Below, piece by piece: positions 11,679-64,000 of a DNA stretch of 64,000 nucleotides. The stretch comes from Candidatus Dormiibacterota bacterium (GTDB taxonomy: Bacteria > Chloroflexota > Dormibacteria > Dormibacterales > Dormibacteraceae). Under the pieces are notes generated by a model. That model was given only the letters and a program-made list of their open reading frames with translations. It did not search any database and was not told the origin of the DNA. Location of the stretch: positions 1 to 64,000 of the forward strand of contig JAMXLM010000012.1 of the NCBI GenBank assembly GCA_024280995.1. The letters are read 5' to 3'. The first letter of the stretch is position 1, and each line of letters begins with the position of its first letter. A program made the translations under genes and the position numbers.

Positions 11679-12391
11679 GACTCCCTCCTTCCCGCGAGGT
11701 TGAGAAACGCTTCTTCCAGGTTCGGCGACCCTCCCTGCGCGCGGATGTCGGCGGGTGAGCCTTCCGCCAGCAGCCGCCCGTACTGGATCAGGCCCAGGCG
11801 CTGGCAGCGGTCGGCCTCGTCCATCACGTGGCTCGACACGATCAGCGTCGTGCCGTCCGCGGCCATCTGCCGGAAGTAGTCCCAGAACTGCACGCGGAGC
11901 TGTGGGTCGATGCCGACGGTCGGCTCGTCGAGCAGCAAGAGGTCGGGCCGGTGCACGAGCGCGCATGCGAGCGAGCAGCGCTGGCGCATGCCGCCGCTCA
12001 GCGTCGACACGACCGATTTCCGGCGGTCGTAGAGATGCACCAGCTCGAGCGCCGCCTTCACCCCGGCTTCGGCGCTGTTGATCGCCGCGAAGAACGCGAC
12101 GTTCTCCTCGACCGACAGCCCTGGGTATAGCGCCGCCTGCTGGGTCATGTACCCGATGTGGCGCAGCACCGCGACGTTCGGCATCCGCTGACCGAGCACG
12201 GTGACCGATCCGTCGTTTGCCTCGACCAGGCCGCAGATCGCGCGTATCAGCGTCGTCTTGCCCGCGCCGTTCGGGCCGAGCAGGCCGTAGATCTCACCCT
12301 GGCGCACGCGCAGCGTGACGCCGTTCAGGGCCTTGAAGGATCCGAACGACTTCGAGACGTCGTCGACGTTGACCGCGTAGGTCTCACTCAA
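11675..12391 (-). CDS. ABC transporter ATP-binding protein
   Basis: A 238-residue ATPase of the DrrA/CcmA type. Motifs are Walker A GPNGAGKTTLI, Q-loop YMTQQAALYPGLSVEENV (Q near residue 85), signature LSGGMRQRCSLA and Walker B LLLLDEPTVGID. TTG 12391 is chosen because it is preceded by AGGAGGAAGGAAG and overlaps the TetR stop as TTGA. An in-frame ATG at 12427 would lengthen the protein by 12 unlikely residues. It pairs with the permease downstream. The three-gene order regulator-ATPase-permease is typical of TetR-controlled efflux pumps. Confidence 0.92.
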   Translation of the reverse strand: MSETYAVNVDDVSKSFGSFKALNGVTLRVRQGEIYGLLGPNGAGKTTLIRAICGLVEANDGSVTVLGQRMPNVAVLRHIGYMTQQAALYPGLSVEENVAFFAAINSAEAGVKAALELVHLYDRRKSVVSTLSGGMRQRCSLACALVHRPDLLLLDEPTVGIDPQLRVQFWDYFRQMAADGTTLIVSSHVMDEADRCQRLGLIQYGRLLAEGSPADIRAQGGSPNLEEAFLNLAGRRES

Positions 12392-13149
12392 CTTCCTTCC
12401 TCCTCTGGTGACATGGCGCGCAGCCATGCTTCGGCGAGCTGCGTCACGGCAGCCTCGCCCTCGACGTCAAGACTCAGGACCTTCTCCGCCAGCGGGCGCG
12501 TGATTATGTGGAACAGGACCGGGCCGACGAGCGACTGGAGCGCGAGCAGAGGATGCATGCGGCGGAGCCGGCCCGCCCCCATCTGCGCCATCACGTACAT
12601 CACGAGCCGGCCGACCACCCTGTTGATCGCCTCCGCGGCCACGGCCTCGGTCTCGGCGGAGAGCCCGCTGATTTCGAAGAACAGCGCGCGAATCAACCCG
12701 ACGCGGCCCACGCTCGCGCGGTAGGCGGCGCGCGCGACCTCGGGCACCAGGACCTCGGGCGGTTCTTCCCCGCGCGCGGTCAGCACGTGCAGGACGGGCT
12801 CGAGCGGTGAGTAGCCCTCGATGAGCGCGGCAAGGAGCGGGGACTTGCCGGGGAAGAGGCGATAGACCGTGGCGCGGGATACGCCGGCGCGGTCGGCGAG
12901 CTCATCCATCGACAGGCTCGCAAGTCCCTTTTCCCCTACCAACTCCACCGCGGCCGTGAGGATCCGCTCGCGGGCGTCGGGCTCAGGGGAAACGGCGAGC
13001 GCCTGGAGCAGGGCCTCTCTCGACTTGAAGTGGCGGTAGAAGCTGGCCCGGGAGACTCCTGCCGCGGCCGCGAATTCGCTGACGGTGGGCTTGCCGCCGC
13101 GGGCGAGCACCTGGTGCGCGCGATCGAGGATCCGGCCGCTGACGTCCAC
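12388..13149 (-). CDS. TetR-family regulator with two tandem HTH segments
   Basis: A 253-residue repressor. Two TetR-type HTH motifs occur in series: residues 22-41 (TVSEFAAAAGVSRASFYRHF) and 80-99 (SMDELADRAGVSRATVYRLF). A normal TetR protein has one. The remaining 150 residues are the helical ligand-binding and dimerisation part. GTG 13149 lies only 10 bases from the -10 element. A perfect 7-7-7 inverted repeat sits between the -35 and -10 of its own promoter, so it probably represses itself and the downstream ABC exporter genes, which it overlaps as TTGA. Confidence 0.9.
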   Translation of the reverse strand: MDVSGRILDRAHQVLARGGKPTVSEFAAAAGVSRASFYRHFKSREALLQALAVSPEPDARERILTAAVELVGEKGLASLSMDELADRAGVSRATVYRLFPGKSPLLAALIEGYSPLEPVLHVLTARGEEPPEVLVPEVARAAYRASVGRVGLIRALFFEISGLSAETEAVAAEAINRVVGRLVMYVMAQMGAGRLRRMHPLLALQSLVGPVLFHIITRPLAEKVLSLDVEGEAAVTQLAEAWLRAMSPEEEGS

Positions 13150-13158
13150 TCTGATTCG

Positions 13159-13187
13159 AGACTAGACAAGACGTCGCATCTTGTCAA
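13159..13187 (-). promoter_or_regulatory. Promoter of the tetR-ABC operon
   Basis: Reading leftward, a perfect -35 TTGACA (13187-13182) is followed after 17 bp by TAGTCT (13164-13159). The predicted start of transcription, about 7 bases on, falls within a few bases of GTG 13149, giving a leaderless or nearly leaderless mRNA. Confidence 0.7.
13165..13185. promoter_or_regulatory. Likely TetR operator
   Basis: GACAAGA (13165-13171) and TCTTGTC (13179-13185) form a perfect inverted repeat with a 7-bp spacer. It fills the space between the -35 and -10 elements of the tetR promoter, where bound repressor would block RNA polymerase. Confidence 0.7.
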
Positions 13188-13235
13188 GTTCCATCATGTC
13201 CGCTTTCGCGTCGTCCGGCGGTACTTGGGCTCAGG

Positions 13236-13769
13236 ATGGTGGCCACGCTGACCGCGATCGCCGACCGGGCGCCGACCGCCGACGAGCTGTGCCGGCTTTA
13301 CGCGGCCGATGTCTGCCGCTTCGCCGCGCTGATGTCCCGGAGCCCGGCCGACGCGGAGGACCTCGCGCAGGAGGCCTTGCTGAAGGCCGTGCGCGGCCTG
13401 CCCGGCTTCGATCCCTCGCGAGGATCCGTCTCGGGCTGGTTGTGGCGGATCGTCGCCAATGCGGCAAGGGACGCCGCCGGGCGGCGGAGGCGCTGGAGCG
13501 ACCTAGTCATCCGCGCCGGCATCATGACGCCGCGCGAGTCCCAGTCGGTCGAAGACGTCGCGCTCGCCCGCATCCGCGACGGTGAGCTTCGCCGGATGCT
13601 GGCGACGCTTCCGCTCCGTGACCGGACGCTGGTGGCGCTGCGCTACGGCGCGGGCCTCGACGCCGGTGAGGTAGGGCGGGTGATGGGAATGCAATCGGAG
13701 GCCGCCGGAAAGGCGATTCGCCGCGCCCTCGCCCGCCTGCGGGCGCGCATGGAGGAGACACCGCGATGA
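13236..13769 (+). CDS. RNA polymerase sigma factor, ECF (sigma-70 family)
   Basis: A 177-residue ECF sigma factor, not closely similar to the one at 6.4 kb. Region 2 (about 18-85) contains SPADAEDLAQEALLKA and the WLWRIVANAARD segment. Region 4 (about 115-172) contains LATLPLRDRTLVALRY and an HTH (DAGEVGRVMGMQSEAAGKAI). ATG 13236 follows CTCAGG. The last codon overlaps the next gene as ATGA (13766-13769), so it is coupled to a single-pass membrane protein that probably controls it. Confidence 0.9.
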   Translation: MVATLTAIADRAPTADELCRLYAADVCRFAALMSRSPADAEDLAQEALLKAVRGLPGFDPSRGSVSGWLWRIVANAARDAAGRRRRWSDLVIRAGIMTPRESQSVEDVALARIRDGELRRMLATLPLRDRTLVALRYGAGLDAGEVGRVMGMQSEAAGKAIRRALARLRARMEETPR

Positions 13770-14719
13770 CGACAGAGCTACTCGAAAAGAGGCTGGAGAG
13801 CCTTGCCGCCGATGCTCCGGACGCGGGTCGCGTGTCGGCCCACGTGCTCTCGGCGTCGCCGGGACGGGTCCGGCCGGTGTGGCCGCGAGTCGGCCTGAGC
13901 CTGGTCGGAGTCATCGTGCTGGTCGCGCTCGTCGCCTACTTCGTCCCGGCCGCGGACACCGCGGTTGCTTCGAAGGCGCCGTGGGGCGGCGACATCCTGC
14001 AGTGGGCCGGCCTGGTCGGAGCCCGCGATCGAATCACCTACGTCGACTCCGAGGCAAGCTCCTCCGGCTACAGCATTCGGTTGGAAGGCGTTTACGCCGA
14101 CTCGACGAGGACGGTGCTTCTGCTGCACGCCGAACCGGTCGCGGTCTTTCCGTTTCGGGCGAGCCTTACGGACCAATTCGGGCGCTCTTATGAGCCCAAT
14201 GGCGGCGTCGCCGACACGCGGACCGGAGATTCGTCCGTCGAGTTCGAGCCGCTGGCGTGGCCCGATCAGTACACGGGCGCCAGGATCACGCTGCGGGTGT
14301 CCCAGCTGCAGACCGTCCCAGGCGCGTTCGTCAACGGGCTCTGGGCGGTGACGGCCACGATCGGGGTCGATGTCGCGAAGCCGCTCCCCGCGCCGGCTGA
14401 CGGTCAGCTCGGTCCGGCCCACTTTCACTTCACATCTGCGAGCTACACACCGGCGACCATTCAGGTCGACTTCGAGGTGACTGGAGTCTCGCCCGAGGAC
14501 CTCGGCCGGATTGTGCCGGATGGCGGTAAGGGCGGCCCGGCCCTCATCGTGCTCGTGCTCGATCCTTCAGGGCAGGTGATCAACGGCAACAGCGCGGCGT
14601 CCGGGGCTCCGTACAGCTACCACGCCCTCGGGTTTCGTACGGGCGGAGGTGGCGACTACGTGCTGCGTGTCAGCTACTACGGCTACGGCAGCTTCGACCG
14701 CGTGATCCGGATCCCTTAA
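13766..14719 (+). CDS. Single-pass membrane protein coupled to an ECF sigma factor (putative anti-sigma)
   Basis: A 317-residue protein with a short cytoplasmic N-terminus (about 1-38), one membrane helix (about 42-62, VGLSLVGVIVLVALVAYFV) and a large extracytoplasmic region. The exterior part is beta-rich, with two repeating modules beginning around residues 85 and 215. No zinc-binding anti-sigma motif (HxxxCxxC) is seen in the cytoplasmic part. Its position, start-stop overlapped with the sigma gene, and its topology suggest an anti-sigma factor or surface sensor; this is inference. The 3' end shares the stop tetranucleotide TTAA with the convergent PPOX gene. Confidence 0.75.
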   Translation: MTTELLEKRLESLAADAPDAGRVSAHVLSASPGRVRPVWPRVGLSLVGVIVLVALVAYFVPAADTAVASKAPWGGDILQWAGLVGARDRITYVDSEASSSGYSIRLEGVYADSTRTVLLLHAEPVAVFPFRASLTDQFGRSYEPNGGVADTRTGDSSVEFEPLAWPDQYTGARITLRVSQLQTVPGAFVNGLWAVTATIGVDVAKPLPAPADGQLGPAHFHFTSASYTPATIQVDFEVTGVSPEDLGRIVPDGGKGGPALIVLVLDPSGQVINGNSAASGAPYSYHALGFRTGGGGDYVLRVSYYGYGSFDRVIRIP

Positions 14720-15132
14720 CAGGCTGGATTGTCGGCTGCCGCCCAGCCGGTCATCCTGTCGATCGAGATGGCGACGACCGGGCCTGGCGGCCTCGTCCTT
14801 CGGTACTGCTCGTATTTGCGCGCGAGCACCTCGAGCGCCGGCGCGGTGTCTTCGACGATTCGCGCCGTCCCGTCGACGCGCACCCACCACAGACGGGTCC
14901 AGTCGTCCTCGTAATGGTCGACCAGCACCGAAACGGCGGGGTTGGCCGCGATGTTGCGCAGGCGTTTGAGGTCGGTGGTGCGCTTGGGCTTGGCATCGAC
15001 CGCGAAAAAAAGGGACTCCCCGTCGAAAGCGAAGGTGATCGGAACGACGTGCGGCCGGCCGTCCGTTCCGGCTGTTGCCAGGCGGCCAACCCGCGCTTCA
15101 AACAGGCGGGCTCGCATGGATGCGCCGTCCAT
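14716..15132 (-). CDS. PPOX-class probable F420-dependent oxidoreductase
   Basis: A 138-residue split-barrel flavin/F420-binding protein of the pyridoxamine-phosphate-oxidase-like superfamily. It opens with the typical RVGRLATAGTDGRPHVVPIT strand pair. KPKRTTDLKRLRNIAANP (cofactor phosphate binding) and HYEDDWTRLWWVRVDG follow, and the C-terminal strand has MTGWAA. This pattern matches the Rv0121-like subgroup (TIGR03668) of Actinobacteria and relatives. The substrate is unknown. The start may be at 15132 or the ATG at 15117, which would remove five residues. Its stop interlocks with the neighbouring gene. Confidence 0.85.
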   Translation of the reverse strand: MDGASMRARLFEARVGRLATAGTDGRPHVVPITFAFDGESLFFAVDAKPKRTTDLKRLRNIAANPAVSVLVDHYEDDWTRLWWVRVDGTARIVEDTAPALEVLARKYEQYRRTRPPGPVVAISIDRMTGWAAADNPAC

Positions 15133-15153
15133 CGAACGAAGTATCGTTGACCC

Positions 15154-15558
15154 GTGCAGCGGCTCCGGACGTACACCGTCGACGAGGCAAATCGCGAGCT
15201 TCCTCGCGTGCGTCCGATCGTCGCTCAGATCGCAGAGCTGTCAGCTCTCCGTCCTGACCTCGAGGAGCAGCTGCGGATGGCGGAGTACAGCGCCCAGCGG
15301 CCGAGCGCCAACGGCTCGGACCACGAGCGCGAGCAGCAGGCCCGCGACGCGGTCCAGGGCGCCGAGGAGGAGCTGCTCAAGGCGGTGCTAAGTCTCAACG
15401 CCATGGGCATCCAGCTCAAGGGCCCGCTCGAGGGATTGATCGATTTCCCGTCGTATCGGGACGGCGAGCTGGTGGAGCTGTGCTGGAAGCTGGGCGAGGA
15501 GCGGGTCGAGCACTGGCACCGGGTCGGCGAGGGCTTCGGCGGGAGAAAGAAGCTCTAA
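15154..15558 (+). CDS. DUF2203 domain-containing protein
   Basis: A 134-residue soluble protein. The N-terminus TYTVDEANRELPRVRPIVAQ and the C-terminal motif ELCWKLGEERVEHWH followed by GFGGRKKL are diagnostic of DUF2203. The middle is helical and charged. The family is widespread in Chloroflexota, Acidobacteria and relatives; function unknown. It stands alone between the divergent PPOX gene and the convergent cyclase gene, with whose stop it interlocks (CTAA at 15555-15558). Confidence 0.85.
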   Translation: MQRLRTYTVDEANRELPRVRPIVAQIAELSALRPDLEEQLRMAEYSAQRPSANGSDHEREQQARDAVQGAEEELLKAVLSLNAMGIQLKGPLEGLIDFPSYRDGELVELCWKLGEERVEHWHRVGEGFGGRKKL

Positions 15559-18173
15559 GCCAGCCAGCCCTGCGCGAAGGTGGTGGCGTCCTGCAGCGAC
15601 ATACCTGCGCCTTCGGTCCACGCGACTTCCTCCTCGGGCGTTGTCACCGACTCATGCCAATCACGGCCGTCGTTGAGGCCCGCGTTGCCGGCGAGATCTG
15701 TGCCCGTCTTGTTGCGGCTCGCGAGGGCAGCCGCGGCCAGCCTTAGCGCCGCCGTTTTGTCGCGCTCGTACTCCGCCACGGACGCGACGTCGTCCAGGAA
15801 GATCGTGATCCCGCTTATGTCGTTCGCCTCGGCGAAGATCTCCAGACCCTGCCTGGCGCAATCATGTGCCCTGGTCACGTCGCCGAGCTTCAGCGCAGCC
15901 AGGCACCTCGTGTGCAGAGCCCATCCGTGTCCAAACCTGTTGTCCACCTTCCGGTTGAGCTCGATGGCTTCGTCGAGCGCCACCGCGGCTTCGGCATTGC
16001 GCTCCTGGAAGTAAAGCGCGTTGCCGATGGCCCACCCGCTGCGTGCCGCGCCCGCGGCGTCGCCCAGCTCCTTGAAGATGGCGTTCGCCTCCTGGACCAT
16101 CTCGAGCGCACTGACCAGGTCGGTCCGTCCGACCAACCGTGGGAAGCTCGAGTTGTAGAGGGCGTCCGCGAGCTTGGCTTTGTCGCCTGTTGCCCGAACC
16201 AGGACGATGTTTTCGTCGTACCAGCGCTGCGAAGCCTCCATGTCGGCCTGCCAGTAGGCGATGCCGGCCGCGGCCTCGAGTGCGCGGGCCCTCTCCTGGG
16301 TCGGCGCCGTCGACATCGCGAGGATCGCTTCCATGCGCGCGCGACCCTCGCGCAGCTGGCCGCGCATCTGCCAGAAGCGCCAGAAGGCTGCGCCCAGGCA
16401 CATCGCTCGCGACGCGTCGCCAGTTGCGGCCGCCCAGTCGAAGGCGGCGCGGAAGTTGTCGTGGTCGCGCTCGAGGCGGTCGAGCCAGTCCTTGCGCTCG
16501 GCGCCGAACAGGTTGGGCGACGCGGCTTCGGCCAGAGCCTGAAACGCGGCCGCGTGCCTGTCTCTGATGGCTTGTTCCTCGCCGCTTTCACGCAATCGCT
16601 CCCCCGCGTATTCGCGCACGACCTGGAGCATCAGCAGACGCGGTTCCTCGAAGTCCGGCATGCGCCGCAGAAGGCTCTGGTCGGCGAGCTCGTCGAGGCC
16701 GGTGAGCACGTCGATCCCCAGGTCGTCCGAGCCGCAGACCGCTTCGATCTGCTCCAGGCTTGCGCCGCGCGCGAACACCGAGAAGCGGCGGAAGAGCCGG
16801 CGGTGCGGCTCGTCCAGGAGGTCGTAGCTCCAGGCGATCGCGCCCGCCAGGGTCTGCTGCCGCCCGGGCAGGTCACGCGCGCCGCCGGCGAGGACCTGCT
16901 GCAGGCTCTTGTCGAGCCGCGCAAGGAGGGCCTTTGGCGCGAAAAGCTTCACGCGCGCGGCGGCAAGCTCGATCGCGAGGGGCAAGCCATCGACGCGCTC
17001 GCATATGCCGGCGACCGCGGCAGCGTTGTCGTTCGTGACCTGGAAGTCCGGTTTGACCGATACGGCGCGCTCGATGAAAAGCTGAACGGCTTCGAACTGG
17101 GACAGAGCCGCCAGCGGCGGCAGGGCTCTTGGATCAGGTAGGCGCAAAGGGCGGACAGGCATCTCCTGCTCGCCATAGACGCGCAGCACTGCCCGGCTGC
17201 TGACGACTGCCTTGATGCCGGGGCTCGCGTGCAGCAGCTCCGACACCACGCCCGCCCCGTCCGGAAGCAGCTGCTCGTAGTTGTCGAGGACGAGCAGCGC
17301 CTTGCGGTCATGGAGGTAGTCGTTTACGACATCGAGCGGCATGCGATTGCCCGCGACCCCGACTCCGAGCATGTTGACGATGACGGCTGGGATGACCGTA
17401 GGGTCGGTCACTGCCGAAAGTGGGACGAAGAACACACCGCCCGGGAAGTCGTGGATCACGTCGGCGGCGAGCTGCAGGCTCAATCGCGTCTTGCCGATGC
17501 CGCCCGGACCGGTCAGCGTGAGCAGACGCGTGCCCGACAGCAGCCGCCGCGCCTCGATCACGTCTTCCTCACGACCGATGAAGCTCGTCAGCTGAGTCGG
17601 GAGGTTGTTCGGAGTCGAGTCGAGCGTGCGCAGCGGCGGGAAGGCATCGCGAACGCCGGGTATCACGAGCTGGTACAGGCGCTCAGGTCGCGCCAGATCC
17701 TTGAGACGGTGCATGCCGAGGTCGCGCAGCGTGACTCCGTCGTCCAGGTGCTCATCGACCAGCGCACGTGTCGCCTCCGATATGACGACCTGGCCGCCGT
17801 GCGCGGACGCCGCGACCCGTGCGGCATGGTGCACGTCCAGACCGATGTACTCGTTGCCGACGAGCGGAGCCTCGCCGGTGTGCAGCCCGATCCGGACGCG
17901 GATGGTCACGCCTTCCGGCCACTCGTTAGTGGCGAGGTCGGTCTGGGCAGTCGCCGCCGCATGGCACGCGTCGACCGCGCTTTCGAAGACGGCGAAGAAA
18001 GAGTCGCCTTCGGTGCGGAGCTCGCGCCCGCGGCTGCCGGTGAATGCCGCGCGGAGTATCGCGTGATGGTCGGTCTGTGCCTTGACGTAGCGGTCGCCCA
18101 CCTCCTGCATGAGGCGTGTCGAGCCTTCTATGTCGGTGAAGAGGAAGGTGACGGTGCCGGTCGGCAGGGTCAT
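15555..18173 (-). CDS. Class III nucleotidyl cyclase - NB-ARC-type ATPase - TPR protein
   Basis: An 872-residue regulator. Residues 1-170 form a class III cyclase homology domain (TVTFLFTDIEGSTRL, RTEGDSFFAVF, IGLDVHHAARVA). Residues about 205-500 form an AfsR/NB-ARC-like ATPase with Walker A GPGGIGKTRLS, Walker B ALLVLDNYEQLL and SSRAVLRVYGE. Residues about 530-870 are helical TPR-like repeats. Canonical metal aspartates are present. The position of the transition-state asparagine is histidine and the substrate-specifying aspartate is shifted or lost, so the product is uncertain. The start overlaps the FAD oxidoreductase stop as ATGA. It is last in a seven-gene leftward run. Confidence 0.9.
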   Translation of the reverse strand: MTLPTGTVTFLFTDIEGSTRLMQEVGDRYVKAQTDHHAILRAAFTGSRGRELRTEGDSFFAVFESAVDACHAAATAQTDLATNEWPEGVTIRVRIGLHTGEAPLVGNEYIGLDVHHAARVAASAHGGQVVISEATRALVDEHLDDGVTLRDLGMHRLKDLARPERLYQLVIPGVRDAFPPLRTLDSTPNNLPTQLTSFIGREEDVIEARRLLSGTRLLTLTGPGGIGKTRLSLQLAADVIHDFPGGVFFVPLSAVTDPTVIPAVIVNMLGVGVAGNRMPLDVVNDYLHDRKALLVLDNYEQLLPDGAGVVSELLHASPGIKAVVSSRAVLRVYGEQEMPVRPLRLPDPRALPPLAALSQFEAVQLFIERAVSVKPDFQVTNDNAAAVAGICERVDGLPLAIELAAARVKLFAPKALLARLDKSLQQVLAGGARDLPGRQQTLAGAIAWSYDLLDEPHRRLFRRFSVFARGASLEQIEAVCGSDDLGIDVLTGLDELADQSLLRRMPDFEEPRLLMLQVVREYAGERLRESGEEQAIRDRHAAAFQALAEAASPNLFGAERKDWLDRLERDHDNFRAAFDWAAATGDASRAMCLGAAFWRFWQMRGQLREGRARMEAILAMSTAPTQERARALEAAAGIAYWQADMEASQRWYDENIVLVRATGDKAKLADALYNSSFPRLVGRTDLVSALEMVQEANAIFKELGDAAGAARSGWAIGNALYFQERNAEAAVALDEAIELNRKVDNRFGHGWALHTRCLAALKLGDVTRAHDCARQGLEIFAEANDISGITIFLDDVASVAEYERDKTAALRLAAAALASRNKTGTDLAGNAGLNDGRDWHESVTTPEEEVAWTEGAGMSLQDATTFAQGWLA

Positions 18174-55524: not shown

Positions 55525-58500
55525 ATGTTCACCCCGTTGGCTAAACAGCTGAACGCGCCCGCGAACTCGGCGGCGGCCGATCCTTTGTTCGGGGCCGCGC
55601 TTGCGTCGTCCTCGCCTCCGACCCCCTGGGACCAGCCGGTCGTGACCGGCCTGGCGGTGGCGGCCATCATCGCGGCGGTCGCCTGGCGGATCTGGCAGGC
55701 AAACCCGCCCGCCTCAGTCCTCAGCCAGGAGGCCGTCCTGATCGGGATCGGGGTCGTCTTCGCCGCGGCCTCCGTGGTCGTGAAAGGCTCCCGCTACTCG
55801 ACCAGCCTGGCCGCCCAGGTGCCGATCATGCTGATCGCCGCCGCCCTGACCGACCTCATCCTCGCGGGCGCGGGCAGGTGGCTCGGCGACGACCTGCCGC
55901 CGCTGGCCGCGGTCAGCTTTGCCACCGTTTTTCTCTACTTCGAAGCCGGCCTGCACTCCCGTTACTTCGCCTGGGTCTTCGGCATCGCCATCCTCGGCAT
56001 CGCGGCGCTCTGGATCTACGCGGTCTCAGCGCTGATGGTCTCGCTCGGCACGGTGATCATCTGGACGCTCGTCCTCGTCGGGCTGGGTGTGCTCGCCTAC
56101 CTCACCTCCCGCTCCGTGGAAAGCGACCTGGCCACGCAGGTGGAGCGGCAGAGCTCGCTCCTCGCGACGTTGAGCGAGCTCGGCGAGGGCTTGATGATCA
56201 CGGAGAAGGGGCGCTTCGTCGCCGGCAACGACGCGTACGTCGAGCTGACTGGGTACTCGCGGTCGGAGCTGGCCGCCATGGCGACGCTGATCGACCTCGC
56301 GCCGCCCGAGCAGCGCGAGGACTTCGAGAGAAACCTCGCCAGGCGCATGGCGGGCAAGGAAGCCCCCGACAAGTACACGTCGACGATCCTCAACAAGTCC
56401 GGGCGGAAGGTCGACGTCGAGGTTGCGATCCACCAGATGGGCCGCCGCAGTCATCAGCAGCTGTCGCTGGTGAGCGACATCTCAGGGCGTCTGCGGGCGG
56501 AGGCGGGCGAGCGCGAGATCGAGGCGCGTTTCCGCACCCTCTTCATGCAGGCGCAGGCGGGCATGGCCTTCGCCTCCCTGGACGGCCACATCACGACCGT
56601 CAATCCGGCCTTCTGCGAGCTCGTGGGCTACACCGAGGACGAGCTGCGAACGGTCTCGCTCGTGGACATCACGCACCCGGACGACGTCGTCGCGCTGCAG
56701 GAGGTCATGCACTCGATGCTCGCCGGCGAGGACGAGGGGCGGCGCATCGAGAAGCGCTACACGCGAAAGGACGGAGAGCATGTCTGGGTCGACCTGACGA
56801 TGCGGTTGGTCCGAGGGGCCGACGGGCGTCCCAGCTATTTCCAGACCGTCGCGGTCGACATCCGCGACCGCAAGCGCGCCGAGGTCTTGCAGGCGGCTCG
56901 CTTCGCGGTCACGCAGGCGCTCGTCACCTCGCCGGGCTGGAAGAAGGCGGCGCCGGGTGTCCTGGAAGGCCTCTGCCGCGCGCTCGACTGGGAGCTCGCC
57001 GAGTACTGGGAGGTCGATGCCGAGCGAGAGGCGATGCACTTCGTGACCTCGTGGAAGCGGCCCGGCCGCGACACCGCCGCGTTCGAGGCCACCGCCGCCG
57101 GTCAGGCCTACAAGCGCGGCGAGGGGCTGGCGGGCAAGGTCTGGGAGGCGGGCAAACCCATCGCCATGCCCGACCTCGCCGGTGACACGTCGCCACGCGC
57201 CGCCGCGGCGGTTGCGGTCGGCCTGCACGGGATCGTCGGCTTCCCGGTCCGCAGCGGTCGTCGCGTGGTGGGCATGATCTCGCTTCACACGTGGGCGGCC
57301 CGCGGCCTCGACGAGGGCTTGATCGCGGTGATGGTCGACGTCGGATCGCAGATCGGCGAGTTCGTCGAGCGCAAGCGCGCCGAGGTTGCGCTGCAGGAGA
57401 GCGAGAAGCGGATGCGCTCGGTGCTCGACAACGTGTCCGACGGCCTGGCGACCATCGACCATGCCGGCATCATCGAGTCCGCCAACCCGGCGGTCGCCAA
57501 GCTCTTCGGCTACTCCGACCACGAGCTCATCGGAGAGCAGGCGAACATCCTGATCGCGACCACGCACCGCGCCGCCTTCGACAACTACCTGCAGCGGCGC
57601 CTCTCGATGGAGGGACAGGGTGGCGGCTCCCACGAGACGATGGGCAAGCGCAAGAACGGCAGCCTGTTCCCGCTCGAGTTCGTGGTCAGCTCGATGCAGG
57701 TCGGTTCGAGACACCTTTTCATCGCCACCCTGCGCGACATCTCCGAGCGCAAGGCGCACACCGACGCGCTCGAGTACCAGGCGCTGCACGACGCGTTGAC
57801 CGGGCTGCCGAACCGCAGCCTGTTCGGCGACCGGCTGCGCCAGGCGCTGCTCGCGGCGCGCCGCAACCAGAAGATGTTCGGCGTCCTGCTCCTCGACCTC
57901 GACCGGTTCAAGGACATCAACGACGCACTCGGTCACGACCGCGGCGACAGCCTTCTCCAGGAGGTGACGGCGCGTCTGCGCGGAGTGCTGCGCGCGACCG
58001 ACACGGTGGCACGCCTCGGCGGAGACGAGTTCGCGGTGCTGACGCTTGACGCGCGGCACCCGGATGACGTGATCGGGACGGCGAAGAAGATCCTTTCGTC
58101 GCTCGAAGGGGCGTTCGCCATCGCCGACCAGATCGTGGAGACGGGCGCGTCGATCGGCATCGCCCTTTATCCGGTGCACGGCGACGACCCCAGCACCCTG
58201 CTGCGCCGCGCCGACGTTGCGATGTACGTGGCCAAGCGATCAGGGGGCGGATTCGCCGTGTACCAACCCGAGCACGAGGCGCAGACGCTTCGCCGCTCCG
58301 GCCTCGCGGGCGAGCTCCGTCGCTCGATTCCGCAGGGCGAGCTCGTGCTGCACTACCAGCCGCAGGTGACGCTCGCGAGCGGAGAGATCCGCACGGTCGA
58401 GGCGCTGGTCCGGTGGAATCACCCGCGCGAGGGCTTGATGCCGCCCGACCGCTTCATCCCGATGGCCGAGGAGACGGGGATCATCCACCCGCTGACCGCG

Positions 58501-59112
58501 TGGGTGATCGACGCGGCGCTGGAGCAGCTGTGCAAGTGGCTCGCCGAGGGGATCGACGTGAGCGTTTCATTGAACGTGTCCCCGCGCAACATCGAGGACC
58601 ACTCGCTCGAGGAGATGGTCGCCCGGGCGTTGAGCAACTTCAAGGTCGAGCCCGCGCGGCTCACCCTCGAGATCACAGAGGGCGTGGCGATGGCGGCGGC
58701 CGCAGCCAAGGCGCTGCATCGCCTGCACGAGATCGGAGTGCGAATCGCGCTCGACGACTTCGGCACCGGCTACTCGTCGCTGCTCTACCTGATGCGCCTG
58801 CCGGTCCATGAGATCAAGATCGACCGCTCGTTCGTGTCGGCGCTCGGGTCCGACCCCGACTCCGGCGCCATCGTGCGCTCCGCCATCGGACTGGGCCACA
58901 ACCTCGGGCTGCGCGTGGTCGCCGAGGGGTTGCAGGACCGGATGGCGGAGACGATCCTGGTCGAGGCCGGTTGCGACGCGGCCCAGGGATTCCTCGTCGG
59001 CCGGCCGGTCGATGCGGCGGAGGTGACGGCGCGACTGCGCCGGCTCTCGGGCATCGCTGAGCTCGCACCGCAGGCAGAGACCGTCGAGCACGCGGACGAA
59101 GCCGCGCTCTGA
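55525..59112 (+). CDS. Multi-sensor diguanylate cyclase/phosphodiesterase (MASE-like, PAS, PAS, GAF, PAS, GGDEF, EAL)
   Basis: A 1195-residue c-di-GMP enzyme. About six to seven membrane helices occupy residues 35-205. PAS domains lie near 225-345 and 350-460, a GAF domain near 475-620 and a third PAS near 635-750. The GGDEF domain (about 760-925) has an intact LGGDEFAVL at ~832. The EAL domain (about 930-1175) has VEALVRWNHP, SLNVSPRNI, LEITEG, LDDFGTGYSSL and IKIDRSF, all catalytic residues in place. Both making and breaking c-di-GMP are therefore possible. It precedes rmlD and the exosortase operon, suggesting control of surface polysaccharide. Start ATG 55525. Confidence 0.93.
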   Translation: MFTPLAKQLNAPANSAAADPLFGAALASSSPPTPWDQPVVTGLAVAAIIAAVAWRIWQANPPASVLSQEAVLIGIGVVFAAASVVVKGSRYSTSLAAQVPIMLIAAALTDLILAGAGRWLGDDLPPLAAVSFATVFLYFEAGLHSRYFAWVFGIAILGIAALWIYAVSALMVSLGTVIIWTLVLVGLGVLAYLTSRSVESDLATQVERQSSLLATLSELGEGLMITEKGRFVAGNDAYVELTGYSRSELAAMATLIDLAPPEQREDFERNLARRMAGKEAPDKYTSTILNKSGRKVDVEVAIHQMGRRSHQQLSLVSDISGRLRAEAGEREIEARFRTLFMQAQAGMAFASLDGHITTVNPAFCELVGYTEDELRTVSLVDITHPDDVVALQEVMHSMLAGEDEGRRIEKRYTRKDGEHVWVDLTMRLVRGADGRPSYFQTVAVDIRDRKRAEVLQAARFAVTQALVTSPGWKKAAPGVLEGLCRALDWELAEYWEVDAEREAMHFVTSWKRPGRDTAAFEATAAGQAYKRGEGLAGKVWEAGKPIAMPDLAGDTSPRAAAAVAVGLHGIVGFPVRSGRRVVGMISLHTWAARGLDEGLIAVMVDVGSQIGEFVERKRAEVALQESEKRMRSVLDNVSDGLATIDHAGIIESANPAVAKLFGYSDHELIGEQANILIATTHRAAFDNYLQRRLSMEGQGGGSHETMGKRKNGSLFPLEFVVSSMQVGSRHLFIATLRDISERKAHTDALEYQALHDALTGLPNRSLFGDRLRQALLAARRNQKMFGVLLLDLDRFKDINDALGHDRGDSLLQEVTARLRGVLRATDTVARLGGDEFAVLTLDARHPDDVIGTAKKILSSLEGAFAIADQIVETGASIGIALYPVHGDDPSTLLRRADVAMYVAKRSGGGFAVYQPEHEAQTLRRSGLAGELRRSIPQGELVLHYQPQVTLASGEIRTVEALVRWNHPREGLMPPDRFIPMAEETGIIHPLTAWVIDAALEQLCKWLAEGIDVSVSLNVSPRNIEDHSLEEMVARALSNFKVEPARLTLEITEGVAMAAAAAKALHRLHEIGVRIALDDFGTGYSSLLYLMRLPVHEIKIDRSFVSALGSDPDSGAIVRSAIGLGHNLGLRVVAEGLQDRMAETILVEAGCDAAQGFLVGRPVDAAEVTARLRRLSGIAELAPQAETVEHADEAAL

Positions 59113-59115
59113 CAC

Positions 59116-59925
59116 CTGCTTAACGCGCTCATCTTCGGCGCTGAGGGTCAGCTCGGGACCGAGCTGACGAGGCTGCTCGGCCCGCAGAGCGCCCTGACGT
59201 ACGAGCAGGTGTCGATCACCGACGCCGGTGCGGTCTCGGCGGTCATCTCCGAGCGCAAACCCGACGTGGTCTTCAACTGCGCCGCATACAACTTCGTCGA
59301 CCGCGCCGAGACGGAGCGCGACAGAGCGTTCGCGGCGAACGCGGATGGGCCGCGCATCCTTGCGCTCGCATGCCGGCAGGTGGGTGCCTCGCTCGTCCAC
59401 TTCTCGACCAACTTCGTCTTCGACGGTGCGCACGACGAGCCCTACATCGAGGCCGATCACGCTGAGCCGATCTCGGTCTACGGCGCGTCGAAGCTGGCCG
59501 GCGAGCGCGCGGTCATCGAGGTGGGGGCGCACGTGGCCGTGCTGCGCACCGCGGCCCTTTACGGCGGGCCGCACAGCTTCCCGATGCGCATCCTGGAGCG
59601 GGCGCGCGCCGGCGGGGACCTCAGCGTCGTGTCCGACCAGTTCGTGAATCCGACCTATGCCCGGGACCTGGCGGCCGCCGCGATTCGGGTGGCCGAGGAG
59701 GGGACCGCCGGAATCGTTCACGCCGTCGCCGAGGGCTGCTGCGGGTGGGACGACTTCGCCCGGGCGGCGCTGGCTGAGGCAGGCATGACGATCGAGGTCC
59801 GCTCCGTGTCGACTTCGGGTTACCGGTCACCGGCCCGGCGACCCGCCAACGGCTGCCTGGCGTCTACGCGGATCGCGCCGCTACGAGCCTGGCGCGAGGC
59901 GCTTCACGAGGCGCTGAACCCCTAA
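59116..59925 (+). CDS. rmlD: dTDP-4-dehydrorhamnose reductase
   Basis: A 269-residue short-chain reductase making dTDP-L-rhamnose in the last step of the pathway. The NAD(P) motif IFGAEGQLGTELTRLL begins a few residues after the proposed start. VVFNCAAYNFVDRAETE, STNFVFDG, PISVYGASKLAGE (YxxxK) and FVNPTYARDLA follow. The first in-frame ATG/GTG/TTG is GTG 59209, which would delete the nucleotide-binding fold. CTG 59116, four bases after the EAL gene's stop, is the only suitable codon. No other rml genes are present here. Confidence 0.88.
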   Translation: MLNALIFGAEGQLGTELTRLLGPQSALTYEQVSITDAGAVSAVISERKPDVVFNCAAYNFVDRAETERDRAFAANADGPRILALACRQVGASLVHFSTNFVFDGAHDEPYIEADHAEPISVYGASKLAGERAVIEVGAHVAVLRTAALYGGPHSFPMRILERARAGGDLSVVSDQFVNPTYARDLAAAAIRVAEEGTAGIVHAVAEGCCGWDDFARAALAEAGMTIEVRSVSTSGYRSPARRPANGCLASTRIAPLRAWREALHEALNP

Positions 59926-60219: not shown

Positions 60220-60576
60220 TTGCAAAGATTGATCAGTTCGAGGGATGTGGCAGCCCGCCTTGGCGTGAGCCAGGCGACAGTCGCACGCGCCGTGGCGCGA
60301 GGCGTCCTCCGCGCTGCGCTCGTCACGCCGGGCGGACACCGCCGCTTCAACGTCGCCGACGTCGAGCTCTACGCCGCCTCGCTCCAGGACGAGCCCGAGG
60401 GCGCAAAGCTCATCACCACCGGCCAGGCGGCGCGTCTGCTCGGGGTCAGCCAGCCGACGCTGAACCGCGCCGTCCGCCGCGGGAAGCTGCAGCCGACCCT
60501 CACGACACCGGGCGGCCACCGCCGGTTCGACAGCGCTGAGCTGAGCGCGGCGCTCCTGTACGAAGACGCGCAGTGA
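60220..60576 (+). CDS. Tandem helix-turn-helix (MerR/BldC-like) DNA-binding protein
   Basis: A 118-residue regulator made of two copies of the same excisionase/BldC-type winged HTH. Copy 1 (about 5-50) has SSRDVAARLGVSQATVARAV and VTPGGHRRFNVADV. Copy 2 (about 65-112) has TTGQAARLLGVSQPTLNRAV and TTPGGHRRFDSAEL. No ligand-binding domain is present. Start TTG 60220 or TTG 60229. Its end overlaps the glycosyltransferase gene as GTGA, so it probably controls the operon it heads, perhaps including itself. Confidence 0.88.
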   Translation: MQRLISSRDVAARLGVSQATVARAVARGVLRAALVTPGGHRRFNVADVELYAASLQDEPEGAKLITTGQAARLLGVSQPTLNRAVRRGKLQPTLTTPGGHRRFDSAELSAALLYEDAQ

Positions 60577-62981
60577 TTTCGCAAGGAGAAGATCCGACTC
60601 ACGTTTCCGGGCCACGCACCGGGCGCGGCCTGGGCAGCCTGACGTGGAGCGTCGTCCTCAACGCCGTCCTCGTCGCCGCGTTTGTCGTCGGCGCGATCCC
60701 CATCGTGGCCATCGCCCGCGGCTTCGTCGAGCTTGTGCAGCAATCCAGGATCCGGAGCGGCGCCGACTGGCTGGCGTACGGCCTGGCCTTCACCGGCCTG
60801 TTCCTCGGCGCGATCTTCTTCGCCTACGCGCTCAAGTACTACCTCAGCACCGCGATGGTGTTGCTGACCACGCTGGTCGGCGCGCCGCCGCGCAACGGCA
60901 ACGGCACCAAACCTGCAAACGGGCGCATCAACGGCAACGGCCACGGCCACGGCATCAGCCTCGACCTCGGCCATCACCCATTCGTCTCGGTGCACGTCGC
61001 CGCCTACAACGAGAAGCGCGTGATCGAGCGACTGCTCGAGGCACTTCGGCAGCTCGACTACCCCGAGTACGAGGTCGTTCTCGTCGACGACTCGACCGAC
61101 GAGTCGGTGGAGATCCTCGAGCGGTGGAAGACGTGGCCGCGGCTGAAGCTCATCCACCGGACGTCGCGCGCCGGGTACAAGGGCGGCGCGCTGCGGGAAG
61201 CGCTGAAGGTCATGGATCCGCGCACCGAGTACGTGGTGATCTTCGACGCCGACTCGGTTCCGTTCCCCGACTCGATCGAGCGGCTGCTTCCCTATTTCTA
61301 TCGGGTCGGCGACGGGTCTTCGTCGAGCCGCCGGTTCGAAGCGGCGTTCGGCCGCACCGATGCTCCATCGGAGCCGGGTCAGATCAAACGCCGGCCTGAG
61401 GTCGCCGCGGTCCAGAGCTATCAATGGCACGTCCTCAACAAGTCCGAGAGCTGGCTGACCGAGGCCGTGCGGGCCGAGTACGCGGGCAGCTACATGATCG
61501 AGCGTCCTTTCCAGGACGCGATCGGCTCGCTGAAGATGATCGCCGGCACCGCGTACATGATCCGCGCCGACGTGCTGCGCCAGGTCGGCTGGGGGACGAG
61601 CATCACGGAGGACTGGGAGCTCACCCTCAAGCTCTACGCGCGCGGCTACAAGGTCGTGTACACGCCGTGGGCGGAGACGCCGGCCGAGTGCGTCAGCACC
61701 TTCTCGCGGCTTGCGCGCCAGCGCATGCGATGGGCCGAAGGCCACACGTACAACGTGCGCAAGTGGTTCCTCGAGATCATGCGGTCGCCTTTCGTGACGC
61801 CGCTCGAAAAGCTCGAGTTCATGTACGACTCCACGTACTACCTGCAGGCGGGGCTCTTCGTGATCGGCTCGATCGCGTGGCTCATCTCCGAGCTTGTGTT
61901 CCGCACGCACGTGCCCGGTTGGACGGCGCTTCTGGGCTGGTCGTTGCTGTTCTCGAACATCTTCGCCCTTCCGCTGATGAACCTCGGCGGGCTGATCCTC
62001 GAGGAGGCGCCGGCGCGCGACGTCCAGGGAGCGTTCGGCGCCGTGGTGCTGTCGTTCGCGCTGGTGCCGTTCCAGGGTTGGGCGGCTTTCAAAGGCCTCA
62101 TCAGCAAGGACGAAGGCCCGTGGTTCCGGACACCCAAGACCGGACGCGTCACGGACAGCGTCCGCCACCTGCGCCGGCTGTACATGCTCCAGCGCCTGCT
62201 GCGTGGCAGGCGCCCGCGCGGACCGCAATGGGTCGCGCCGGCCACGCCTCTGGCAACGTCGACGGTGCGCCGCGCTCCGATGCGCCGGCGTTGGGCCGGA
62301 TGGCTCGCGGTCGTGATCCTGGCGCTCGTCTTTGGCGGACTGGCAGCGATGTCGGTGCACGCGCCGACGGTCAGCGCCGCCGGCAACCCGCTCTACCTCC
62401 ACGGGACCGGGACCTCGCCCGGCTGCACGCCGAGCACGATGGATCCGAACGCCGGCACGCGCGCGACTCCATGCGCGATTCAGTCGGCTGCCGGCGGCGC
62501 CACCAGCACGTGGACGTTGACGAGCTCGACCGCGCAGACGGTCGACCCGGGGACCTGGACCTTCACGTTCTACTGGACCGGCGGCACAGGCGCGACCAAC
62601 GACGTGGTGAGCATCGCGGCGGGCGTGTCCGCGACCGCGAGCTGCGCCGGGTTTGTCGCGACGGTGCCGAGCGGCACGTCGACCTGGTCGGCGAGCTACG
62701 GCGGCAGCACCGCCAATCCCAACAGCCCGCTGACCGTCAGCACCAGCTCAAGCCAGCTGGCATTGGTGATTCCTCCGGGCGGCTCGCTCTGCCTGTCGGT
62801 CACCCTCACGCACAACACCGGCGGGAAGCCGTCGATGCTCTACGACGGAACCGCCGGAATCGGCAACACCGGAGTGGTGCCGCCGAGCATCGTGGTGCCT
62901 GAGAGCCTGGTCGGCCTGACCGGCGTGGCCTTGTTCGCGCCACTGCTGGCCGGGCGCTTCGTGCGGAGACGACGGTCGTGA
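60573..62981 (+). CDS. GT2 glycosyltransferase fused to a secreted domain with PEP-CTERM-like sorting tail
   Basis: An 802-residue protein. Residues 1-550 form a processive GT2 (cellulose-synthase-like): two N-terminal helices, the catalytic aspartates VDDSTD (172) and FDADS (225), TED (345) and QRMRW (383), and further membrane helices to about 500. Residues 570-600 start with MRRRWAG and a hydrophobic stretch ending VSAAG, exactly like a signal peptide. Residues 605-770 are a Ser/Thr/Gly-rich beta domain with cysteine pairs. Residues 775-802 read VPES, a hydrophobic helix and RRRRS, the layout of an exosortase signal. Overlaps by 4 bp on both sides. Confidence 0.88.
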   Translation: MISQGEDPTHVSGPRTGRGLGSLTWSVVLNAVLVAAFVVGAIPIVAIARGFVELVQQSRIRSGADWLAYGLAFTGLFLGAIFFAYALKYYLSTAMVLLTTLVGAPPRNGNGTKPANGRINGNGHGHGISLDLGHHPFVSVHVAAYNEKRVIERLLEALRQLDYPEYEVVLVDDSTDESVEILERWKTWPRLKLIHRTSRAGYKGGALREALKVMDPRTEYVVIFDADSVPFPDSIERLLPYFYRVGDGSSSSRRFEAAFGRTDAPSEPGQIKRRPEVAAVQSYQWHVLNKSESWLTEAVRAEYAGSYMIERPFQDAIGSLKMIAGTAYMIRADVLRQVGWGTSITEDWELTLKLYARGYKVVYTPWAETPAECVSTFSRLARQRMRWAEGHTYNVRKWFLEIMRSPFVTPLEKLEFMYDSTYYLQAGLFVIGSIAWLISELVFRTHVPGWTALLGWSLLFSNIFALPLMNLGGLILEEAPARDVQGAFGAVVLSFALVPFQGWAAFKGLISKDEGPWFRTPKTGRVTDSVRHLRRLYMLQRLLRGRRPRGPQWVAPATPLATSTVRRAPMRRRWAGWLAVVILALVFGGLAAMSVHAPTVSAAGNPLYLHGTGTSPGCTPSTMDPNAGTRATPCAIQSAAGGATSTWTLTSSTAQTVDPGTWTFTFYWTGGTGATNDVVSIAAGVSATASCAGFVATVPSGTSTWSASYGGSTANPNSPLTVSTSSSQLALVIPPGGSLCLSVTLTHNTGGKPSMLYDGTAGIGNTGVVPPSIVVPESLVGLTGVALFAPLLAGRFVRRRRS

Positions 62982-63526
62982 CGCGCACGCGCGCCGACGT
63001 CAACCTCACGTTGATCGCGATGGCCTGCGCGCTGCTGATGGTGATGCCGCTGGTGACGACGTTCAACGACCTGCTGACGGCATGGGCGATGGTCCTCGGC
63101 GCCAACAACCCGCTCCAGGCGATCGTCCCCGCAGAGTCGCGGATGGTGGTCAGCCTGCTGAGCGTGCTCGGTGTCCACGCCGCGGCGTCAGGCAGCCACA
63201 TCGTGGTTTGGGACGGCTCAGGCTCGATGCACACGCTGTTCATCTCGTGGAACTGCATCGGCTGGCAGAGCGTGATCCTGTTCGGCGTGAGTATGATCTC
63301 GGGGCTTCGCGGTGGTGGCGGGGTCGAGGCGCGCGCGCAGGTCATCCTGATCGGAGTCGCCGGGACCATGCTGCTAAACCTGGTGCGCGTGTCGCTCGTG
63401 GCCCTGATTGCGGCGACGATCGGCGTCGGGCCCGCGATCCTCTTCCACGACTACGGCGGCACGATCATGTTCGTCGCCTTCCTGTTCGCGTTCTGGGCGA
63501 TGGCCCAGCGGTGGATCCTGGAATGA
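62978..63526 (+). CDS. Exosortase/archaeosortase family protein
   Basis: A 182-residue membrane protease/transpeptidase with about five to six helices. The catalytic triad of the family is visible: cysteine in SWNCIGWQSV (about residue 90), arginine in LLNLVRVSLVALI (about 135) and histidine in LFHDYGGTIMF (about 155). Such enzymes cut PEP-CTERM-type tails and hand the protein to a membrane or surface carrier. It is shorter than EpsH-type exosortases and lacks their extra domain. GTG 62978 overlaps the glycosyltransferase stop. That protein's C-terminal tail is its probable substrate. Confidence 0.88.
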   Translation: MTRTRADVNLTLIAMACALLMVMPLVTTFNDLLTAWAMVLGANNPLQAIVPAESRMVVSLLSVLGVHAAASGSHIVVWDGSGSMHTLFISWNCIGWQSVILFGVSMISGLRGGGGVEARAQVILIGVAGTMLLNLVRVSLVALIAATIGVGPAILFHDYGGTIMFVAFLFAFWAMAQRWILE

Positions 63527-64000
63527 ACCGCTGGCTGCGTCTCGGGCTGCAAACCGCCTTCGGGCTCGCGCTGCTCTGGCTGTGGCTGCGGACGGTCTCG
63601 CTGCCCGAGATCTTCGCCCACGCACGCGTCCACCAGTGGTGGGCCGTCGTGCTGATGGTGGCCCTGTTCCTCGTGACCAGCGTGCTCCGGGCGAGGCGCT
63701 GGCTCATCCTCCTTCGCCCGCTGGCGCCGGTCGGCATCGTCCGCGCCTTCGCGATGAACGCAGGCGCGAGCCTTCTCAACTACGTCGTGCCGATCCGCCT
63801 CGGCGACGCGATGCGCTACTGGTGGCTGTGGCGCCGCCACCGAGTGCCTTCCGGATCCGCCCTGGCGACGATCGTGGTCGACAAGACGTGCGACCTCGCC
63901 GGCGTGGCGGCGGTGCTCGCGGGTCTCACGGTCGTGGCGTCGACGGGCCTGGTCGTGGCGCCGCGAGGTCTCGTGGGCGCGGCCGCCCTGGCGCTGGCGC
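63523..64000 (+). CDS. YbhN/UPF0104 (lysylphosphatidylglycerol-synthase TM-like) membrane protein, partial
   Basis: The first 159 residues of a polytopic membrane protein, cut by the window end. Helices are at about 5-25 and 38-58. The family motifs RARRWLILLRPL, MNAGASLLNYVVPIRLGDAMRYWW and ATIVVDKTCDLAGV match the flippase-like YbhN/UPF0104 domain (also found in MprF and AglD-like proteins). Members are proposed lipid or lipid-linked-sugar transporters. It starts at ATG 63523 overlapping the exosortase stop, so it belongs to the same operon and could export a lipid-linked glycan or carrier used in it. Confidence 0.85.
   Translation, partial: MNRWLRLGLQTAFGLALLWLWLRTVSLPEIFAHARVHQWWAVVLMVALFLVTSVLRARRWLILLRPLAPVGIVRAFAMNAGASLLNYVVPIRLGDAMRYWWLWRRHRVPSGSALATIVVDKTCDLAGVAAVLAGLTVVASTGLVVAPRGLVGAAALALA

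Follow-up and report, generated by a model that had tools for sequence, protein, structure and literature searches.

Near the end of the window, the whole stretch of 64,000 nucleotides analysed, a glycosyltransferase (GT) gene of a Dormibacterota soil bacterium ends in what looks like a protein-sorting tail and is followed directly by an exosortase gene. Do the two form a dedicated enzyme–substrate pair, and what would it mean for a sorting substrate to be built into a polysaccharide synthase?

Gene order and anatomy of the fusion

Four genes on the + strand overlap by 4 bp each, as the preliminary description had it; the reading frames and coordinates were re-derived and agree. The first gene (60220..60576, TTG start) encodes a putative regulator of 118 aa with two excisionase/MerR-type HTH repeats (TIGR01764, 70.5 bits; HTH_17 in two stretches), matching the tandem-HTH regulator earlier placed at the head of the operon. 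An HTH homologue was found in 18 of the 33 family loci searched, the window's own locus counted. The second gene (60573..62981, GTG start, 4-bp overlap with the HTH stop) encodes an 802-aa fusion of a GT2 synthase, a passenger and a sorting tail. The third (62978..63526, GTG start) encodes the 182-aa exosortase, its start codon and the stop codon of the GT gene overlapping in GTGA. The fourth (63523..64000, ATG start) continues beyond the window to contig position 65751. It had been called YbhN-like, which holds for its LPG_synthase_TM (UPF0104/YbhN-like) part, but the GT4 glycosyltransferase fused to this part had been missed. It is overlapped by 4 bp by a PMT_2-type glycosyltransferase gene (contig 65748-67307), which in turn is overlapped by 4 bp by a methyltransferase gene (contig 67304-68122).

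Processive GT2 synthases are marked by D, DxD, TED and QxxRW motifs and flanking membrane helices. The GT2 catalytic domain of the fusion (residues 136-390; 60978..61742, + strand) matched PF13641 (90.9 bits) and PF00535 (79.6 bits) and contains DD172-173, DxD225-227, TED345-347 and QRMRW383-387. Residues D172, D173, D225, D227, T345, E346 and D347 were invariant in 30 aligned GT sequences, and Q383-W387 were at least 90% conserved. With these conserved motifs and the membrane helices in its model, the protein has the features of a processive GT2 polysaccharide synthase. The best Foldseek matches of the model were BcsA and hyaluronan synthase (HAS). The catalytic motifs and the overall model are like those of BcsA, hyaluronan synthase and PgaC; unlike them, the fusion adds an exported passenger and a sorting tail. 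The best NCBIfam match, PgaC_IcaA (TIGR03937), gave 91.9 bits against an equivalog cut-off of 422.3, and therefore no polymer name can be assigned. Three helices were modelled between the GT domain and the linker, so a cytoplasmic linker would fit poorly unless one of them is not a full span.

Behind the synthase part, the alignment, hydrophobicity and charge pointed to an internal signal-peptide-like helix (residues 572-602; 62286..62378, + strand). Its N-flank is basic, and its C-terminal end reads AP-x-x-x-A|A, making a signal peptidase site between A602 and A603 possible. The archaeal rows of the alignment show a weak A-x-A-like site, and the helix could be an uncleaved anchor. Residues 603-770 (62379..62882, + strand) make up a predicted exported passenger domain with four Cys (618, 634, 691 and 740), assigned from AlphaFold2, fold comparison and composition. 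The model is confident (pLDDT 92.2 for residues 602-761), and fold comparison identified it as a jelly-roll. Ser, Thr and Gly account for 45% of residues 601-770 versus 21% of the first 540. Among the lineages compared, the fusion ORF ranged from 755 to at least 1648 residues.

The sorting tail (residues 775-802; 62895..62978, + strand), identified by alignment and profile match, has the sequence VPESLVGLTGVALFAPLLAGRFVRRRRS. Its VPES-hydrophobic helix-RRRR pattern can be read directly in the C terminus. The GT2 identity, the Ser/Thr/Gly-rich domain and the tail had all been proposed in the preliminary description, and all three were borne out. The tripartite CTERM signal was present in 30 of 30 aligned GTs, with a motif, a hydrophobic stretch and four to eight K/R after the motif. 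The motif was PE in 29 and VDE in one, PE being kept across diverse tails. The window's tail has VPES and not a literal PEP motif, and the matches listed (the best 25 of 27 for NCBIfam and 8 for Pfam) included no curated CTERM model. A CTERM substrate is expected to be a separate preprotein with a cleavable N-terminal signal peptide; here the signal-peptide-like helix is internal, behind the GT2. Model confidence is low for the tail helix (means 44, 47, 48 and 40 over the final four blocks), which could simply anchor the protein in the membrane.

The exosortase and its pairing with the tail

The protein encoded next to the fusion passed TIGR04178 (31.4 bits, cut-off 23). Residues C93, R137 and H157, in C-x-G, N-x-x-R and H motifs, were invariant in 27 aligned exosortases; the alignment covered 27 of the 33 family loci, with two fragments and four others left out. 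The Cys, Arg and His were also present in the 11 exosortase examples listed for chosen loci. These results agree with the earlier identification of the gene by its Cys, Arg and His. The Pfam EpsH model PF09721 matched neither this protein nor any other in its genome. By profile and residues the protein is a member of the exosortase family, and it would be expected to cleave and transfer a CTERM substrate.

The bacterium's own genome (94% complete) contained this exosortase as its sole TIGR04178 match. The tail profile found one strong tail there (E 2.9e-16; next best 0.416), and so did a profile with VDE-type tails added (9.9e-16; next best 0.396). Such profiles can overlook tails: a VDE tail at the second exosortase locus of genome G023 scored just 0.026. 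When the window's 576 ORFs of at least 60 aa were scanned with a looser pattern, the fusion tail came up together with a single further ORF (223 aa near 31353, VSE motif); this ORF was rejected as unlike the family in appearance.

Among 42 family genomes, 29 had a TIGR04178-type exosortase match and 13 had none. A strong tail (E at most 1.8e-11) was found in 27 of the 29 and in none of the 13. In the two remaining genomes, G009 and G032, only exosortase fragments of 76 and 32 residues matched. Strong tails numbered 32, with 28 in ORFs holding GT sequence and four in ORFs cut by contig ends. At the profile level, the pairing was exclusive. The GT stop overlapped the exosortase start in all 31 family loci. 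Of 31 Dormibacterota-type loci on named contigs, 27 had the fusion upstream of the exosortase, and the other four were cut by contig ends. In a set of 32 chosen loci, GT distances correlated with exosortase distances (r 0.95, a value reached in 0 of 2000 permutations), a result that, like the co-occurrence, is weakened by MAG incompleteness and shared ancestry.

The preliminary description had proposed looking for the tail in orthologues and for other exosortases and tails in the genome. A tail of the same kind ended every family orthologue with a visible C terminus, one with VDE for PE, indicating that it is not due to chance. The orthologues are tailed, and the genome gave a single exosortase match and a single strong tail rather than many, so neither of the sequence-based outcomes named in the preliminary description as refuting was observed. 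A dedicated exosortase–substrate pair whose substrate forms one protein with a polymer-type GT2 is therefore well supported.

Distant relatives and known systems

The same fusion beside an exosortase, which had been suggested as a search in public genomes, was found in other phyla, archaea included. Other Chloroflexi, Patescibacteria and Bathyarchaeota supplied 20 loci: the fusion preceded the exosortase in 10, eight had a related exosortase with no such GT fusion upstream, and two were undecidable. The eight loci indicate that the exosortase family is not tied to the GT fusion everywhere. The archaeal locus L301 has three genes in this order: an exosortase, a separate IPE-tailed ORF with a signal-peptide-like beginning, and a GT2 without a tail. 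This split arrangement speaks for the module and for the signal-peptide-like nature of the fusion's internal helix. In Bathyarchaeia, exosortases also bear a tailed passenger, homologous to the GT's passenger in the two cases compared. Three relatives' synthases carry an N-terminal REC, two of them with MshEN too, which fits a regulated exopolysaccharide synthase. Together, these features suggest an old module spread from Dormibacterota to Bathyarchaeota, with REC/MshEN on the synthase or a tailed passenger on the exosortase in some lineages. No description of this module was found in the literature searched. As for single loci, the exosortase of L174 has a GT4 gene nearby and the exosortase of L178 a PMT_2-type gene, and in L042, which shares its contig with L146, the GT frame is itself split into two.

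The closest described system is XrtG with its glycosyltransferases in Gram-positive bacteria. The Lactiplantibacillus plantarum locus, as presented in PMC12854382, has a Firmicu-CTERM protein, XrtG and two XrtG-associated GTs as separate genes, and a table of PMC8951740 labels a GT2 as exosortase G system-associated. Both systems keep an exosortase, a dedicated CTERM protein and associated GTs in one locus, but the CTERM protein and GTs are one protein in the window. The window's exosortase scored 15.3 bits against the XrtG model (cut-off 102.75), and its GT 36.9 bits against the XrtG-associated GT model TIGR03111 (cut-off 363.95). NCBIfam also has an XrtP-associated glycosyltransferase model (NF053846) for a broadly similar GT2, which its curators link to an exosortase. 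The window's GT scored 49 bits against this model (cut-off 520), whose 440 positions leave little room for a passenger and tail.

PEP-CTERM/EpsH sorting, whose link to exopolysaccharide loci was proposed in 2006 (PMC1569441), shares with the window's system the tripartite tail, the Cys/Arg/His enzyme and that gene link. It typically serves numerous stand-alone substrates in a genome, each bearing an N-terminal signal peptide, whereas the window's system has one substrate behind a synthase, VPES instead of PEP, and no PF09721 match. Archaeosortase A belongs to the same enzyme superfamily. For archaeosortase A/PGF-CTERM, archaetidylethanolamine is the proposed acceptor, and the relevant part of PMC7157517 names the S-layer glycoprotein and HVO_0405 as substrates and mentions no fused synthase. 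The preliminary description knew of no described system with this fusion, and no account of an exosortase substrate fused to a glycosyltransferase was found in the literature searched. The exosortase–GT2 link itself was already known.

Proposed mechanism and alternatives

The locus is probably a dedicated one-enzyme, one-substrate exosortase module whose substrate forms part of a polysaccharide synthase. The BcsA/HAS/PgaC-like processive GT2 at the N terminus would polymerise a sugar and very likely extrude the polymer via its own membrane channel. Behind it, in frame, lies an apparent whole exosortase preprotein: a signal-peptide-like helix, a jelly-roll passenger that would sit outside the cell, and a tail. 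With its VPE-helix-Arg layout, the tail would place the cleavage motif on the outer face of the membrane. Cleavage at PE is predicted for the exosortase, which is presumably translated by the stop-start overlap right behind the tail; the C terminus that this creates on the passenger would then be joined to an amine acceptor produced close to where the polymer leaves. The acceptor may be a lipid, or else a glycan or glycolipid that the operon itself produces. A further cut by signal peptidase after A602 would part the synthase from the anchored passenger, giving two proteins made one to one. The preliminary description had suggested self-processing that links glycan synthesis to anchoring; the dedicated pair with a fused substrate is supported, and the anchoring of the freed domain and its link to glycan synthesis are predictions. 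The term self-processing does not quite fit, since the predicted cut is made by another protein, the exosortase.

More tentatively, and with considerable doubt, the exosortase may join the passenger to the very polymer (or its lipid carrier) extruded by the attached synthase. If so, one translationally coupled unit would make a polysaccharide and cap or tether it with a surface protein, an in-place protein–glycan conjugating machine in both bacteria and archaea. What bacterial exosortases join their substrates to is described as still open in the discussion of PMC12188702. Many exosortase systems have dozens of substrates, which makes their biochemistry hard. One small exosortase and one detectable tail in overlapping genes offer a minimal system for reconstitution, and a substrate fused to a synthase points at the site and pathway for the acceptor. 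The relatives in distant bacteria and archaea should help reveal the attachment targets of sorting enzymes.

Among the alternatives, the one that survives best, still unlikely in our view, is that the synthase glycosylates its own passenger and the operon is a protein-glycosylation cassette in which the exosortase finishes the glycoprotein. The Ser/Thr/Gly-rich passenger, the downstream PMT_2-type transferase, GT4 and LPG_synthase_TM protein, and the corresponding genes at L174 and L178 are consistent with this. However, the GT2 resembles synthases that make polymers processively, and its active site would lie on the cytoplasmic side. Slightly less probable is a structural role for the tail as a membrane anchor: the passenger would be a fixed outer domain guiding or binding the polymer, and the exosortase would act on another target. 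The profile searches of the genome turned up no second strong tail that the exosortase could use, and this, the conserved PE, the agreement in exosortase and tail presence or absence across the 42 genomes and the strict gene overlap all argue against it.

We find it less probable again that the exosortase clips off the tail solely to free the synthase or switch its state, activating it or turning it over by proteolysis; water would then be the acceptor and nothing would be anchored. The strict order and overlap of synthase and protease genes would suit such a switch, as would the seemingly tight control implied by REC or REC and MshEN on some relatives' synthases. The wide variation in fusion length between lineages, however, is more cargo-like than switch-like, and the tailed passengers on Bathyarchaeia exosortases also speak against it. 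That sequencing error joined two genes is barely conceivable: the genomes are largely MAGs and one GT frame is broken, but the same open fusion occurs in dozens of genomes from several phyla, and this conservation refutes an artefact of annotation or assembly.

The operon and its exosortase

The preliminary description had placed four genes with 4-bp overlaps at the window end: an HTH regulator, a GT2 glycosyltransferase ending in a secreted domain (the passenger) and a sorting tail, an exosortase and a YbhN-like protein. All four genes, their coordinates and their overlaps were confirmed, with the GT2 fusion, whose passenger is modelled as a jelly roll, at 60573-62981, the exosortase at 62978-63526 and the last gene starting at 63523. 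The source genome has 3.02 Mb in 46 contigs and is 94.4% complete according to its record. On its 89-kb contig, the operon continues past the window end, again with 4-bp overlaps between genes. The gene at 63523-65751 encodes an LPG_synthase_TM domain fused to a GT4 glycosyltransferase. Next come genes for a glycosyltransferase of PMT_2 type (65748-67307) and for a methyltransferase (67304-68122). A GT4 gene was also present near the exosortase of locus L174; at L178, a gene of PMT_2 type lies close to the exosortase. Upstream of the operon lie a PAS-GAF-GGDEF-EAL protein of 1195 aa (55525-59112), whose connection with the operon is a guess, and an RmlD-like reductase (59209-59925). Elsewhere in the window, the C-terminal end of a 223-aa ORF near 31353 (+ strand) fits a loose VSE-helix-basic pattern; this ORF is probably an ordinary membrane protein.

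The exosortase has 182 aa and scored over the TIGR04178 cut-off. Its C93, R137 and H157 showed no variation across 27 aligned sequences. The Cys/Arg/His motifs were also observed in 11 example exosortases from a wider set, archaea included. The cut-off of a named subtype was reached neither by this enzyme nor by any of ten relatives' exosortases or exosortase fusions that were scanned.

Pairing of the tail with the exosortase

The exosortase and the GT-fused tail very probably form a dedicated pair. The source genome was searched for further tails of this kind, as the preliminary description had proposed, and with three profiles the GT fusion was the one strong match. A profile from 25 tails gave it as the single match at E up to 10. 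A more diverse profile (26 tails) gave it 2.9e-16 and the runner-up 0.416, and a third (27 tails, VDE-type and stand-alone tails included) gave 9.9e-16 and 0.396, respectively. Three genomes from farther afield (one Patescibacteria MAG, one Dehalococcoidaceae genome and one bathyarchaeal record) again had the GT fusion as their only strong tail, and no other was found below 0.1; as their own tails sat in the profile, only the absence of further tails is informative there.

Exosortase matches were found in 29 of the 42 Dormibacteraceae genomes; those of G003 and G035 were truncated by contig ends, and those of G009 and G032 were fragments of 76 and 32 residues lying inside contigs. Strong tails (E at most 1.8e-11) were present in 27 genomes, i.e., these 29 minus G009 and G032, and in none of the 13 without exosortase, where the best score was 0.011. 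If the genomes were independent, which they are not, so clean a separation would arise by chance with a probability of 1e-11. Among the 32 strong tails, 28 were in GT-containing ORFs, and the other 4 were in short ORFs truncated at contig ends. In G040 and G041, which have exosortase and tail, the contig breaks off inside the GT or before reaching it. The second exosortase locus of G023 has a VDER tail with a profile score of only 0.026. GT orthologues (E at most 1e-40) occurred in 26 of the 42 genomes; G021 was the sole one of them without an exosortase match, and there the locus runs into a contig end.

The stop codon of the fusion overlapped the exosortase start codon (ATGA or GTGA, exosortase frame) in 31/31 family loci, that is, the 33 loci minus two fragments, with tail and exosortase start both present. 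GT and exosortase distance matrices of 32 chosen loci correlated with r of 0.95, and 0 of 2000 permutations were as high; co-inheritance alone could be enough to give this correlation. The fragments of G009 (L048) and G032 (L065) have neither GT nor tail and appear to be decayed module copies.

Other lineages and rearranged forms

Exosortase relatives were present in 22 of 400 sampled genomes of the phylum (15 from the family, 4 from the class and 3 more distant). A scan of a named genome collection gave 51 exosortase loci; title and identity put 31 of them in a Dormibacterota-type group. In 27 of the 31, GT and tail were in one ORF before the exosortase, with the GT part broken or short in L146 and L166 and cut by a contig end in L167. 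In the remaining four, the tailed upstream ORF ended at the contig edge before any GT. The preliminary description had also suggested looking in public genomes for the GT2-tail fusion beside an exosortase, and other lineages do carry it: among the other 20 loci, it was present in ten (L174, L177, L178, L179, L180, L183, L184, L185, L186 and L194) and absent in eight (L173, L175, L181, L182, L188, L189, L191 and L193), and two (L172 and L190) lie at contig edges and were not classifiable. The VDER tails of L176 and L179 were picked up by pattern and missed by the tail profile.

In the bathyarchaeal class, the exosortase profile matched 34 of 250 genomes, many weakly. Fifteen loci from the stronger matches were inspected, and 11 had the GT fusion; three of these lie on the contigs of L183, L185 and L186 already counted above, and another three are truncated where their contigs begin. 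Of the remaining four, L297 and L300 sit at contig edges, L293 shows an exosortase-tail ORF but no GT within view, and L301 has the parts split.

Bathyarchaeal operons often contained one or two exosortases bearing their own linker helix, passenger and tail, often adjoining a plain exosortase. Among the inspected loci, 11 such ORFs had a profile-supported tail. Exosortases with tails of VPEN/VSEN/VDER type were noted at L183:3913-5313 and L186:3521-4894 and in L288, L290, L291, L293-L296, L298 and L299; these may be self-substrate enzymes. GT and exosortase passengers were homologous in both operons compared (31% identity, E 1e-22; 38%, E 2e-38), indicating that passenger plus tail acts as a module attached to pathway members.

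At L301, the parts are separate, in the order exosortase, a 276-residue tailed ORF (stop to stop) and a GT2 without tail. The tailed ORF begins like a signal peptide and ends in an IPE-helix-basic tail. The GT fusion therefore resembles a complete preprotein added to a synthase, with the internal helix in the position of the preprotein's signal peptide.

In Patescibacteria, a Laminin_G-like ORF of 1110 aa with an IPER tail (L191:3-3332) lies one ORF from an exosortase and is a possible non-GT substrate. On an Anaerolineaceae chromosome record, a 123-residue ORF (stop to stop; L173:4515-4886) with a VPEG tail and no GT lies just before an exosortase and is possibly a small or degraded substrate. 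The L142 region contains a second exosortase (11885-12733) plus an upstream VPER-tailed ORF of >1058 aa (12541-15714) that runs off the contig; no GT domain was found in its available part.

Proposed mechanism and regulation

The synthase would make and extrude a polymer, and the passenger would be exported next to the polymer exit and retained by its tail. The exosortase, encoded by the overlapping next gene, would then cut at the PE motif and join the passenger to an acceptor. Cleavage of the tail by the exosortase is likely, and the chance that signal peptidase releases the passenger is about even. As the substrate is fused to the synthase, the first acceptor candidates would be the polymer, the precursor of the polymer or a lipid present there; confidence in any particular one is low. 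For an archaeal system, the proposed acceptor is an amine-bearing lipid (PMC7157517), and for bacterial CrtB, attachment to a polysaccharide or another molecule is only suggested (PMC12188702).

Exosortase systems associated with glycosyltransferases, as here, are already known (XrtG and XrtP; PMC12854382, PMC8951740); where the available text describes them, their parts are separate genes, whereas here GT2 and CTERM are fused. The literature searched held no account of a GT2-CTERM fusion, nor of exosortases that themselves carry a CTERM tail, a case at which the search was not specifically aimed.

The GT2-tail synthases of L142 (5230-8781), L177 (1568-4912) and L178 (1835-4888) carry an N-terminal response-regulator receiver domain, and those of L142 and L177 additionally carry MshEN, a c-di-GMP-binding domain. 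These domains suggest phosphorylation- and nucleotide-controlled synthesis.
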